A stretch of DNA of 32,581 bases from a virus. The first letter of the stretch is position 1, and each line of letters opens with the position of its first letter. Where the stretch lies: IMG/VR virus record IMGVR_UViG_3300043449_001167, positions 1-32,581 of that record; one strand, given 5' to 3'. Below the pieces are notes generated by a model that ran no database searches, was not told where the DNA came from, and saw nothing but the letters and a program-made list of their open reading frames with translations. Shown here piece by piece: positions 1 to 32,581 of this stretch. The position numbers and the translations under genes are program-made.

Positions 1-127
1 GGCAGTCCCTGAGCTGACGCCGGGATGGCTCGAGCCGGCCTGGGCCTCGGAACTCTGCGACCTGTGGGAGCGCGCCGTCGCAGGGGAACGGGTGCGGTGC
101 GTCGTTACCGTGCCGGTGCGGTTTGGG
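1..127. repeat. Left copy of 127-bp perfect inverted terminal repeat
   Basis: These bases are an exact reverse complement of 32455-32581; identity stops at base 128, where this copy has T and the other has A. The repeat lies inside the terminase ATPase gene at the right end. Here the same coding piece reads on the plus strand from base 2, runs up to the Phe-Gly before the Walker A Lys-Ser, and then passes into unrelated sequence, so it is a dead fragment. The length equals k=127, a common maximal assembler k-mer. An assembly artefact is therefore as likely as a real genomic end. Confidence 0.95.
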
Positions 128-148: not shown

Positions 149-556
149 TCAGGCGCCGAGGATGCGCGCTACCTGCGTAAGCTGCAGCGGCCTGCCAGTG
201 CGGCCTGTGTAGCCGTGTCGGGCGAGGGCGTCGACCACGGCGCGAAGCGATAGGCCGTTGCGCCGCAAAGCGCGAACGGCGGCAATGGTGGCTTGTTCGC
301 CCGCGTGCGGCACCAGCGTCTGGCCGTCCTCGCCGACGGCCATGCCGAACGGCGCCTCACCCGTTGCGAGCCCTGCGTCCCTTCGACGGCGTAATGCTTC
401 GCGCGTAAGTTCAGGCGTGCCCATGCGGACGCCGTGCGCTAGGCCGTGGCACTGCGCGCACAGAGGTACGGTGCGCGTCCCGCCTCGCGACCTGGGCACG
501 ACGTGATGGCCGTGGTGTGATGTCTGGCCGCACTCAAAGCAGGGAGGTCGTGTCAT
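149..556 (-). CDS. HNH endonuclease with recombinase-like C-terminal region
   Basis: This 135-residue protein starts with an HNH nuclease fold: CFEC near residues 7-10, then HHGHHVVPRSRGG and PLCAQCH, which match the zinc-binding Cys pairs and the His-Asn-His core. The second half (GEAPFGM, EDG, then GLSLRAVVDALARHGY and VARILG) resembles the helical Recombinase domain of large serine recombinases, but there is no resolvase catalytic domain. HNH proteins beside terminase genes are known to assist cos cleavage or packaging. If the ends of the window join, this gene lies directly upstream of the terminase ATPase on the same strand. It is the last of the left-end minus-strand genes. Confidence 0.8.
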   Translation of the reverse strand: MTRPPCFECGQTSHHGHHVVPRSRGGTRTVPLCAQCHGLAHGVRMGTPELTREALRRRRDAGLATGEAPFGMAVGEDGQTLVPHAGEQATIAAVRALRRNGLSLRAVVDALARHGYTGRTGRPLQLTQVARILGA

Positions 557-1153: not shown

Positions 1154-1566
1154 CGCTCTCCTCCGGTCGCGTCGGTCAGTGCGCGGCAGGCGGCATACAC
1201 GAGCGCATCCGCGGCCTCCTGACCGAGCTCGACGCGCCAGTCGCGCGCGTCGGTCGCCAGGTCGAGTCGGCCGTATTGCGTGGCGCCCATGCGCAGGCGG
1301 TCGGCCACGTACAGCAGGACGCGCAGTTCGTCGTTGCCGAGGCTACGCGCGGCCTGGTCGAGCCCGGAAAGCAGCGCACGGCCGACGGCCTTGGCACGCT
1401 CCGGGTCGCGCCAGTCGCAGGTATCAACCGCGCCCGGCGTCGGGCAGTAGTCGCCGAGCCTGCGCAGCGACGTCGCGCGCTCCACCGGGCACGGCTCGAC
1501 GCCCGCGCGCTCGGACGGGATGCCGCACCATATGCATCGGCCCTGGGCGCACTCGTGTGCGTTCAT
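1150..1566 (-). CDS. Cys-rich protein with MazG-like C-terminal helix pair
   Basis: This 138-residue protein begins with a cluster of Cys residues (HECAQGRCIWCG, then two more within 40 residues), probably a zinc site. Its C-terminal half reads GATQYGRLDLATDARDW followed by ELGQEAADALVYAACRAL. This resembles the all-alpha NTP pyrophosphohydrolase (MazG-like) pattern of E-E-x-x-D helices seen in many phage proteins, although the acidic residues are incomplete. The start is the ATG overlapping the upstream stop as ATGA at 1563-1566. The open frame extends to 2157, but that extension lies under other genes. The enzymatic role is an inference. Confidence 0.6.
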   Translation of the reverse strand: MNAHECAQGRCIWCGIPSERAGVEPCPVERATSLRRLGDYCPTPGAVDTCDWRDPERAKAVGRALLSGLDQAARSLGNDELRVLLYVADRLRMGATQYGRLDLATDARDWRVELGQEAADALVYAACRALTDATGGER

Positions 1567-1790
1567 GCCCCGACCCGCCCCCGCGCGCCCTCGACGGCTG
1601 CGCGCAGTTCGGCGTCCTCCGCGCGCCAGCGGAGAAGCGTCCGTTCGGGGACTCCTAGCTGTGCGGCGACCTGCGCCATCGGCAGGTCGAGCGCGGCGAC
1701 GCGAGCCACTTCGGAGATGGCCTTCGCGCGTGTCTCGGGATCCTGAAGCTGCGCAGAAAGGCGCGCGGTTGTGCGACTCGGCTTCGGCAT
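1563..1790 (-). CDS. Helix-turn-helix protein, candidate small terminase subunit
   Basis: This 75-residue protein contains a homeodomain-like helix-turn-helix (MAQVAAQLGVPERTLLRWRA, about residues 37-56) followed by an acidic helix AELRAAVEGARG. That layout resembles the DNA-binding N-terminus of small terminase subunits and of insertion-element HTH proteins. It is the first gene of the left minus-strand group and faces the divergent control region. Being upstream of HNH, and of TerL if the ends join, favours the terminase reading, but it lacks an oligomerisation domain of normal size. A transcriptional regulator remains possible. Confidence 0.6.
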   Translation of the reverse strand: MPKPSRTTARLSAQLQDPETRAKAISEVARVAALDLPMAQVAAQLGVPERTLLRWRAEDAELRAAVEGARGRVGA

Positions 1791-6732: not shown

Positions 6733-6875
6733 ACCCGCACGCCCCCACGGCGACGGCCGAGCGACTGCGCGACTTGGCCGAACGCATCATGCAGTCCGCT
6801 ACGTTGGACCCCGCCGACCGGCGCATCATCGCTGCGGCTCTTGAAACGATCGCGAGGTGGCTTGATGCGCGCTAA
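6729..6875 (+). CDS. Small helical hypothetical protein
   Basis: This 48-residue protein starts at a GTG that overlaps the previous stop (GTGA, 6729-6732) and ends in TAA at 6873-6875. It contains two short amphipathic helices (TAERLRDLAERIM and DRRIIAAALETIARWLDAR). It overlaps the start of the next gene by 11 bases. Small helical proteins with this pattern are common in phage early operons. The function is unknown. Confidence 0.5.
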   Translation: MNPHAPTATAERLRDLAERIMQSATLDPADRRIIAAALETIARWLDAR

Positions 6876-7191
6876 GGCCCACGCCGACCCGCTCGACCGG
6901 GCGACCCATCACGGCATGACGTCGGATCAAGTCTGGGCGCGCTGCCAGCGTTATCAGGTCGATCACATCGTCCAGGCCGCAGCCGACGAGTGTCGGGTCA
7001 CGCCCGGGGAGGTCTGTTCGGCATCACGCACCCACCGCGTCTCCAAGGCGCGCGCAGTCGCATGGGGCAAGCTGCGCGCGCACGGGTGGAGCCTGATGGA
7101 GATCGCTGCCCTGTTCGACCGCGACCACAGCAGCGTCTCGCACGGGCTCCGCAGGCTGGCCGAGCGTGCGGCGCGGGGGGCGAAGGGATGA
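6865..7191 (+). CDS. DnaA domain IV-like DNA-binding protein
   Basis: This 108-residue protein carries, at about residues 47-100, a fold like the C-terminal DNA-binding domain of the initiator DnaA. It has VCSASRTHRVSKARAVAW, then GWSLMEIAALFDRDHSSVSHG, which corresponds to the GRDHTTVxHA signature. The AAA+ ATPase domain is absent. Such short phage proteins may bind a phage origin or DnaA boxes and recruit or block host DnaA. The ATG at 6865 is preceded by GAGG; an open frame exists upstream from 6841 but would lie inside the previous gene. Confidence 0.75.
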   Translation: MRAKAHADPLDRATHHGMTSDQVWARCQRYQVDHIVQAAADECRVTPGEVCSASRTHRVSKARAVAWGKLRAHGWSLMEIAALFDRDHSSVSHGLRRLAERAARGAKG

Positions 7192-29697: not shown

Positions 29698-30558
29698 TTA
29701 CTTTTCGACGGGCGCCTCGCACATCCCCCAGCGCATACATCCGCCCTGCGGCGGGGGCGCGAGTAGCGCAAGCTGGCGACCGCCGTGCGATGTGCGTGAC
29801 CACGCGACAACGTCTCGGATGCCGTTCCACTGCCTCCCGAGCACCGGGGGAAAGAATGTCGACCGCATCTGACGAAACTTGCCCGTCCCCGCATCGTTTC
29901 TGCGCGCACGCTCGGCCGTGAACTCATCTTCCATGCGTGCGATCTGTTCGATGCGCTCGGGATCGTTTTCAGCGATGAGTCGAACTTCGTCCTTCTGCGA
30001 AAAGATGCACGGGTAACAGCCGACCCTATCGTGTCCGCGAAGGTACAAAGGATTCAACGGGACGGCATGCCGATGGTGGATAGCGATCACGTCCTCGACC
30101 TTCCACGCGATGAGCGGGCGCCAGACAAACCCGCCCCATTCATCGTCATCCGACCACTCTGGCAGCGCAGCCCGCGCGCTGCTTTCCTGCCCACGCACTC
30201 CGATCGCGCTGACGGTCTCGCACCCAATGGCTTCGTGGTACTCCCGCAGCGGGCGTAGCTTCAACTCCTGGGTACACCATCGCCCGGTCCGCATGGGGAA
30301 CCCTGCTCGCTTCGTCGCGAGCGCAGCCATGCCCCCGGGCACGCCGACCACGTCGATCGGGCCGATCTTCTCGCGCAAGAGGTCGATGTACTCGTACGTC
30401 TCGCGCGCCTCCCATCCGGTATCGGCGAACACTGCGCGGAATGGAACGTCCGCCTCACGCAGCGCGAGCATAAGCGCCGTGGAGTCTTTACCCCCGCTGG
30501 CGCTTGCGACCACCGTTGCGTCGCCTGCGCGAACCATGTCGGGCACATTGATGTTCAT
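29698..30558 (-). CDS. PAPS reductase family protein (ATP pyrophosphatase-like)
   Basis: This 286-residue protein has the P-loop of ATP pyrophosphatases (SASGGKDS, about 19-26), ADTGWEARETYEYI (about 45-58), GRWCTQELKLRP (92-103) and a Cys pair CYPC (181-184). Related enzymes activate sulfate or make thiolated bases. Phage copies are common but of unknown substrate; here it lies among structural genes and may modify phage DNA or redirect sulfur. The ATG at 30558 was chosen because a longer frame to 30657 overlaps the upstream gene; support for the start is moderate. Confidence 0.8.
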   Translation of the reverse strand: MNINVPDMVRAGDATVVASASGGKDSTALMLALREADVPFRAVFADTGWEARETYEYIDLLREKIGPIDVVGVPGGMAALATKRAGFPMRTGRWCTQELKLRPLREYHEAIGCETVSAIGVRGQESSARAALPEWSDDDEWGGFVWRPLIAWKVEDVIAIHHRHAVPLNPLYLRGHDRVGCYPCIFSQKDEVRLIAENDPERIEQIARMEDEFTAERARRNDAGTGKFRQMRSTFFPPVLGRQWNGIRDVVAWSRTSHGGRQLALLAPPPQGGCMRWGMCEAPVEK

Positions 30559-30602
30559 TAGTAAGCCATTGACCCCAGGTGGGATGGTTTGACGCAAGGC
30601 AT

Positions 30603-30875
30603 TCAGGCGCTGCGGTCGACTGCGACCGAGCCGGTTGAAGATCGGTATGCAACCCATGCAGCCCAGCCGTTACGCAGTACCGCCACGTCTCCACTGGACA
30701 TGCTTGACACACGGACGCACGCGCTCGCAATCGCTTCGCGCTGTGTCTCGCACTGGATGACCTCACCCGTGCGGAGGTCTTGGATGGTCCAGCCGGTGTC
30801 GGGAACCTCGTCGCCGTCGTCGATGGCATCGTCGGCCAGATCGTATGCAGAGCCCATGTCGAACGGGTCGGACAT
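30603..30875 (-). CDS. Hypothetical protein, 90 residues
   Basis: An acidic protein: MSDPFDMGSAYDLADDAIDD at the start, then a beta-rich half (GWTIQDLRTGEVIQCET, GDVAVLRNGWAAWVAY). The ATG at 30875 follows the preceding stop by seven bases with a GGTGA in front of it; the open frame upstream to 30989 overlaps the previous gene. No family recognised. Confidence 0.5.
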   Translation of the reverse strand: MSDPFDMGSAYDLADDAIDDGDEVPDTGWTIQDLRTGEVIQCETQREAIASACVRVSSMSSGDVAVLRNGWAAWVAYRSSTGSVAVDRSA

Positions 30876-31135: not shown

Positions 31136-31789
31136 TCAGAACCTTGTCCGCCTGGCCGACATCTTCGACGTCGCAGGCCCCCCGCACACGCGCAGGAACT
31201 CGACGGCCGAGACGAGCGCGTCGACCTCGTCGTCCTGGTCGCCGTCGATGCCCGTGAACGCGAGCACCCGCCGCGCTAGCCCCTCGGCCCAGACCGCTCC
31301 CCTCGGCAGGATGATGCGGCCGGCGTTCCACAGGTCCTGCGTCCAGGCCGACCGCACGGCCTTGCCCGAGTGCGCCAGCATCGGCACGATGTTCACGGCG
31401 GGTTGCTTGTCGCCGTGCGCATCGGTCGACGCTTCGCCGAGCAGCTGCAGAACGCCGAGCTCGCTGGCGCCGACGTAGCTGGTCATGGGCGCGCCGTCGT
31501 ACTTCGCCGACCATGCGGCGAGCGTGGACCGTAGGCTGCGAATCTCCTTCGCGCCCGACCACACGTCACGCACGTAGTACCGCGCACGCTCGGCCGGCTC
31601 GTCAGCACGGCGCGACACGACGACCACGGCCGCCTTGTCGCCCTTGCCGCTGTAGGAGAGGTCCACGCCGATCACGGTCTGCCACGCAGCAGTTGCCGCG
31701 CGACGCTCGGGCGCGACGTCGGCGGCGAGGCCTCGAGGCTGGCCGAGCTGATGCGCAGTGTGGGCAGGGTTGGGCGGGCGTTGCATCAT
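31136..31789 (-). CDS. Terminase large subunit, nuclease component (separate gene)
   Basis: This 217-residue protein has only the RNase H-like nuclease of large terminases: IGVDLSYSGKGDKAAVVVVSR with metal ligand Asp43, SELGVL with Glu110, and DQDDEVDALVSAVEF with Asp186, 187 and 190. It cuts the DNA concatemer for packaging. The ATPase is in the preceding gene, whose TGA overlaps this ATG as ATGA (31786-31789). A TTG start at 31804 is possible but less likely. The usual large terminase joins both domains in one chain. Confidence 0.85.
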   Translation of the reverse strand: MMQRPPNPAHTAHQLGQPRGLAADVAPERRAATAAWQTVIGVDLSYSGKGDKAAVVVVSRRADEPAERARYYVRDVWSGAKEIRSLRSTLAAWSAKYDGAPMTSYVGASELGVLQLLGEASTDAHGDKQPAVNIVPMLAHSGKAVRSAWTQDLWNAGRIILPRGAVWAEGLARRVLAFTGIDGDQDDEVDALVSAVEFLRVCGGPATSKMSARRTRF

Positions 31790-32581
31790 GTGAACTCCGG
31801 CCAATCATCCGTGTACGTCGTGCCGCGGAACAGCGCCCCCTCGGCCGGGCGCGGTTCGCCCTGGTACAGCGAGAGCCACGTCCGCGACTCCGCGCCCCCG
31901 TACGCCTCGCGTCGCCGCTTCAGCTCGGCCAGTGGCCACCGATCCTCCCACAGCGACCGCTCGACGCCGTTCTCGTCCGTTTCGATCGCCTTGTACTGCA
32001 CCGTGCGGAAGTCGTCGCCGCGTAGCTCTCCGCGCAGCACCCGTCCGATCGGGTCGTCCTCGTGCCACCGCGCGGCGACCACGAACAGCGACGCCGACGG
32101 TTCGAGCCGCGTGTACACGTCGTCCGTGATCCACTCCCACGTCTTGTCGCGGATGCTGGCCGACTCGGCGTCCTCGCGGCCCTTGATCGGGTCGTCGATG
32201 ACGATGATGTTCGCGCCGTAGCCCGTGATCGGACCGTTCACCGACGACGAGAGCAGCCCGCCGTCCTTCGTCGTGCGCCATTCTTCGATGCGGTTGTGAT
32301 CGGGCTGGATCTGGACGCCTGCCGACTCCGCATAGGTTCGGATGCGCCGGCTGAATCGGTCCGTCAGCTTCTGGCTATACGTCAGGTAAGCGATGGTCAG
32401 CTCAGGCCGCATCGCCAGCGCCCACGCCGACGCAGCCGCCAGGGTGAAGGACTTCCCAAACCGCACCGGCACGGTAACGACGCACCGCACCCGTTCCCCT
32501 GCGACGGCGCGCTCCCACAGGTCGCAGAGTTCCGAGGCCCAGGCCGGCTCGAGCCATCCCGGCGTCAGCTCAGGGACTGCC
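31786..32581 (-). CDS. Terminase large subunit, ATPase component (N-terminus cut by window edge)
   Basis: At least 264 residues are visible; the start lies beyond the right edge. The visible part has Walker A VPVRFGKS (37-44), Walker B IIVIDDP (125-131), RWHEDD (171-176, the coupling motif) and WLSLYQGEP near the end, all typical of the packaging motor. An internal GTG at 32490 would lose the N-terminal segment and is not the start. It ends at TGA 31786-31788, overlapping the nuclease ATG. Twenty to thirty residues are probably missing. Confidence 0.9.
   Translation of the reverse strand, partial: AVPELTPGWLEPAWASELCDLWERAVAGERVRCVVTVPVRFGKSFTLAAASAWALAMRPELTIAYLTYSQKLTDRFSRRIRTYAESAGVQIQPDHNRIEEWRTTKDGGLLSSSVNGPITGYGANIIVIDDPIKGREDAESASIRDKTWEWITDDVYTRLEPSASLFVVAARWHEDDPIGRVLRGELRGDDFRTVQYKAIETDENGVERSLWEDRWPLAELKRRREAYGGAESRTWLSLYQGEPRPAEGALFRGTTYTDDWPEFT
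32455..32581. repeat. Right copy of 127-bp perfect inverted terminal repeat
   Basis: Exact reverse complement of 1-127. Here it is part of the reading frame of the terminase ATPase, including bases that encode the first half of the Walker A region. The coding sequence continues properly inward, so this is the authentic copy and the left end is the duplicate. Confidence 0.95.

Follow-up and report, generated by a model that had tools for sequence, protein, structure and literature searches.

An exact 127-base inverted end repeat in a tailed-phage contig, probably an assembly product beside a gap at the terminase gene

The window analysed here is the whole of a virus record, a contig of 32,581 bases. 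It carries a single set of genes for the large terminase subunit (TerL), a Mu-type portal, an S49 protease, a Mu-type capsid protein, sheath, tape measure, baseplate, a collagen-like fibre, an endolysin, an exonuclease, a helicase and a methyltransferase. With respect to the Mu-type head genes, a search of the window for the Mu-type DDE transposase (PF02914) gave no match, its control being likewise silent. Within the late operon a PAPS-reductase-like gene (29698-30657, minus strand) stands between the terminase genes and that for the portal, and a small early protein (6841-7191, plus strand) has a DnaA C-terminal DNA-binding domain (PF08299, 1.4e-12). Meiothermus phage MMP17, Thermus phage Riverbug and Myxococcus phage Mx4 have similar Mu-type portal and head genes, a contractile-tail sheath and a TerL gene placed before the portal; MMP17 and Riverbug are also complete at 33-34 kb, close to the size of the contig. 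In all three, however, TerL lies inside the record as one gene, and its start is not repeated in inverted form in the vicinity. The Riverbug TerL gene contains a perfect 36-nt palindrome (L017:19983-20018).

The two ends of the contig are inverted copies of one another: bases 1-127, when reverse-complemented, are identical to bases 32455-32581. The match stops at base 128, beyond which there is only chance identity (11-18 of 50 positions). Our comparison thus confirms the exact inverted end repeat, and its limit, that the first-pass annotation had reported. Neither a direct terminal repeat nor a third copy of the 127 bases was found in the window, and since the next best inverted repeat there is only 37 nt long at 76% identity, the end repeat is far beyond chance. 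The right copy (32455-32581) lies within the TerL ATPase frame and encodes the first 42 visible TerL residues, the last three of which, RFG, directly precede the lysine of the Walker A motif (VPVRFG|K). The left copy (1-127) is a TerL fragment that runs antisense to the late operon as read from an HNH endonuclease-like gene (149-556, minus strand), and it lies 21 nt past the stop codon of that gene. The putative chimeric junction between the TerL fragment and the HNH flank would therefore lie at 127/128, base 127 being the last shared base. A GGTGCG repeat straddles this join, and we considered it as a microhomology signature of a chimera, but 8% of random points are straddled likewise and the candidate was dropped.

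The ATPase gene (31786-32580, minus strand; PF03237, 4e-8; phrog_38, 1e-48) runs off the contig with its 5' end missing. Its relatives have additional residues ahead of the edge of the window: 22 in the closest one, L003 (IMGVR_UViG_3300033571_009920), about 38 in L107 and about 44 in L099. As TerL starts 22 to about 44 residues earlier in these three, the contig ends inside the gene. The annotation had placed the right copy in an intact terminase ATPase frame, and this is correct as to the frame but not as to its being intact: a start codon and 22 or more residues are missing, and the frame stops short of the nuclease domain, for which there is an overlapping gene of its own (31136-31789, minus strand). 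Joining the contig directly as it stands would leave TerL without those residues and without a start codon; the 21 nt that follow the HNH stop contain none. By comparison with the relatives, the gap between HNH and TerL would amount to at least about 66-130 bp, perhaps 100-200 bp.

In view of the gene order, a head-to-tail closure across this gap would give an ordinary late operon. A small helix-turn-helix gene stands directly before TerL in L107, L013 and L014, and by this position its product may be TerS-like. The left arm of the window has a 75-residue helix-turn-helix gene (1563-1790, minus strand) that matches HTH_23 and, weakly, the terminase small subunit family phrog_1482 (E=0.0035); both it and the HNH gene are on the TerL strand. 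Our scans of viral contigs and genomes yielded no relative in which an unbroken sequence runs from HNH to TerL. The same order (TerS-like, HNH, TerL) had earlier been taken to favour a circularly permuted genome. The head-to-tail adjacency is indeed backed by it, but circular permutation in particular is not, because the order is equally compatible with fixed ends of the cos type lying between HNH and TerL. With its gene set and size, the contig probably represents an almost complete genome in which a short gap remains and 127 bases are counted twice.

The length of the repeat is itself suggestive. The metagenomes of the JGI are assembled by metaSPAdes with k = 33, 55, 77, 99 and 127 (PMC10604447; PMC10434106), and the repeat equals the largest k of such runs, which presumably produced the assembly of this sample as well. 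End repeats are known to pile up at k-mer lengths in the CheckV survey, where IMG/VR had 624 contigs with inverted terminal repeats (ITRs) against 15,211 with direct ones (DTRs), and where only 33.2% of the ITR contigs with an estimate were more than 90% complete (PMC8116208). The COBRA study found, similarly, that metaSPAdes leaves end words as long as the maximal k where repeats break contigs (PMC10914622). The present case is like these in that the repeat has the length of the largest k and the contig would break at a branching node. Those end repeats are, however, mostly direct and come from circular genomes, whereas this one is inverted; consequently an inverted adjacency, either chimeric or real, is needed in addition to a break of k length.

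To see which structures yield such ends, we have employed a toy de Bruijn graph (k=127, random DNA) that represents graph structure only, paired-read path extension being outside the model. A plain circle gave a direct repeat of 127 bases and no inverted one, which rules out a circular genome alone as the cause of the inverted end. Linear genomes with a true ITR of 127, 128, 200, 500 or 1000 bases always gave an ITR of 127, and so did circles that contained inverted repeats of 126-300 bases. A circle to which a fold-back chimera had been added gave no ITR contig as long as the true junction was covered by reads, and an ITR of 127 when it was left uncovered. Whether real or chimeric, an inverted repeat thus comes out as an ITR of 127 once its length reaches about 127 bases, so that this number measures the assembler and not the repeat. 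Since a circle gives only a direct repeat, reads must join the HNH end to the inverted TerL and the true HNH-TerL junction must have been lost. The suggestion in the first-pass annotation that 127 reflects the largest SPAdes k, and with it an artefact, is accordingly supported by the JGI setting, the two surveys and the toy graph. Its picture of one graph node met in opposite orientations has the right topology but is not a cause, as the toy graph demands both the inverted adjacency and the lost junction.

As a calibration, 28 of 79 Microviridae contigs have direct end repeats; these are of many lengths, including 127 (twice), 99 (three times), 55 (once) and also 121 and 123, which backs k-length ends weakly. 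Inverted ends of at least 12 nt occur in none of the 79, from which it appears that the artefact is uncommon.

An alternative is that the viral DNA does carry an inverted copy of the 5' part of TerL of at least 127 bp, placed at each physical end of the genome or forming, between HNH and TerL, a long palindrome of which the assembler displayed the inner 127 bases. ITRs do occur in some complete viral genomes and phages (PMC8116208), and in the toy graph a real inverted repeat of at least 127 bases would look just the same. Such a repeat would, however, duplicate TerL coding sequence at 100% identity beside HNH, and in eight relatives no inverted copy of the respective TerL start is present. 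Moreover, the window has no match to the protelomerase family PF16684 (the positive control was detected) nor to the protein-primed polymerase PF03175, a weak negative given that its control was silent too; and the terminase that the phage encodes does not depend on an ITR. We therefore consider a real repeat unlikely. Its more specific form, a tailed, terminase-packaged phage in which a perfect inverted second copy of the TerL start, of at least 127 bp, lies between HNH and TerL and serves, for example, as a hairpin-forming packaging or end signal, seems more unlikely still. Least probable of all, we think, is a mixed population in which this place is truly inverted, or duplicated in inverted orientation, in some genomes but not in others, the assembler having met both. 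To judge from the toy graph, this too would yield a node with two exits, but neither an invertase nor an inversion-type repeat was recognised near the ends, and the core of the repeat was found in no other IMG/VR contig, in a search from which near-identical records may have been missing.

It seems much more likely (we would put it at about 85%) that the inverted repeat at the ends arose in assembly, from a 127-base word of the final graph together with a fold-back chimera beside an uncovered gap next to TerL. The genome would then read, head to tail: TerS-like gene, HNH, a gap containing the TerL start, TerL ATPase, TerL nuclease, head and tail, with the true HNH-TerL junction presumably absent from the final k=127 graph. 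A strand ending just after HNH would have jumped a few hundred bases ahead to the complementary strand inside TerL and then been copied backwards, and the resulting chimeric molecules would have supplied the reads that join HNH to the inverted TerL. The 127-mer at that point would be a branching node with both its exits in the one contig, which would thus start and end in the same word, in opposite orientation, over exactly 127 bases. Chimeras formed by strand displacement in multiple displacement amplification (MDA) are a close parallel: 85% of 475 were inversions with an intervening deletion, mostly joining nearby segments (Lasken and Stockwell 2007; PMC1855051). Here, too, the second segment is inverted, and if the contig closes head to tail, as we infer, the joined segments are only a few hundred bases apart with a short intervening deletion; such closeness would be what this mechanism favours. 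The MDA chimeras come from amplification, but other fold-back artefacts of library preparation would leave a repeat identical to this one. Weak chimeric edges are usually removed by SPAdes, so either the chimera was well supported or the true junction was uncovered. The repeat truly exists in the recorded sequence, but the virus itself very probably lacks it.

The reason for the lost junction may lie in the phage itself. If packaged DNA were physically cut between HNH and TerL, in the manner of cos-type ends, the contig would be one genome from end to end, the direct junction would be missing because the DNA is cut there, and the inverted join would have formed near that end. This form of the artefact is a tentative proposal that we hold to be possible but somewhat less likely than its absence. 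L003, which comes from another sample, likewise ends beside its TerL, 36 bp upstream of the start codon, and the break may therefore mark a physical genome end, although this rests on a single relative. L003 differs from the window in having no inverted end and is a fragment of 10.7 kb. HNH genes are known to adjoin terminase genes (PMC5304195), and the HNH protein GP74 of HK97 promotes cos cleavage (PMC9410871); here it would take a head-to-tail closure of the contig to bring the HNH gene next to the terminase genes, and the match of the HNH protein to PF01844 (E=0.00099) falls below the curated Pfam cut-off. Against the proposal, there is no HNH match in L099, L107, L112 and L113, nor in the phages MMP17, Mx4 and Riverbug, and a coverage gap in a stretch of 70% GC would explain the missing junction equally well. 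The protein itself (135 residues) has a C-terminal part (residues 51-133) that resembles phrog_95, the recombinase domain of serine recombinases, and the usual middle N of its HNH motif is apparently a T. No relatives of it were found in viral contigs, and in phages there are distant matches only, such as the one in Flavobacterium phage 11b, where the HNH gene is the first of the record.

The terminase has a further peculiarity in that its ATPase and nuclease are separate genes. The nuclease gene (31136-31789, minus strand; PF17289, 8e-6) overlaps the ATPase gene by an ATGA at 31786-31789, and the same arrangement is present in L003 (overlap at 891-894), whose ATPase and nuclease are 67% and 52% identical to those of the window. 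As the split and its ATGA overlap are kept in L003, this is not a sequencing error. The two-gene TerL covers 31136-32580 (minus strand) in the window and L003:37-1538, and it is a single fused gene in the more distant relatives (L099:9059-10507; L107:2311-3759). From these comparisons the split looks to be a derived state common to two phages from different contigs. A narrow search of the literature found no precedent for a split terminase. The TerL of the deltaproteobacterial contig L014 (6872-9574) has an in-frame insertion past its Walker A motif, apparently an intein. The split is more interesting than the end repeat and deserves a study of its own.

Contigs with ends of this kind can enter virus catalogues as complete genomes with inverted terminal repeats, and an end repeat equal to the k of the assembler should not be taken for biology. 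The present contig is nearly complete in genes but lacks the start of TerL, and hence neither the type of ends nor the completeness of the genome nor its mode of packaging should be read from a repeat that is very probably not a real feature of the virus. The break between HNH and TerL, adjacent to TerL in L003 as well, is nevertheless a cheap lead to what may be a physical end of the genome.
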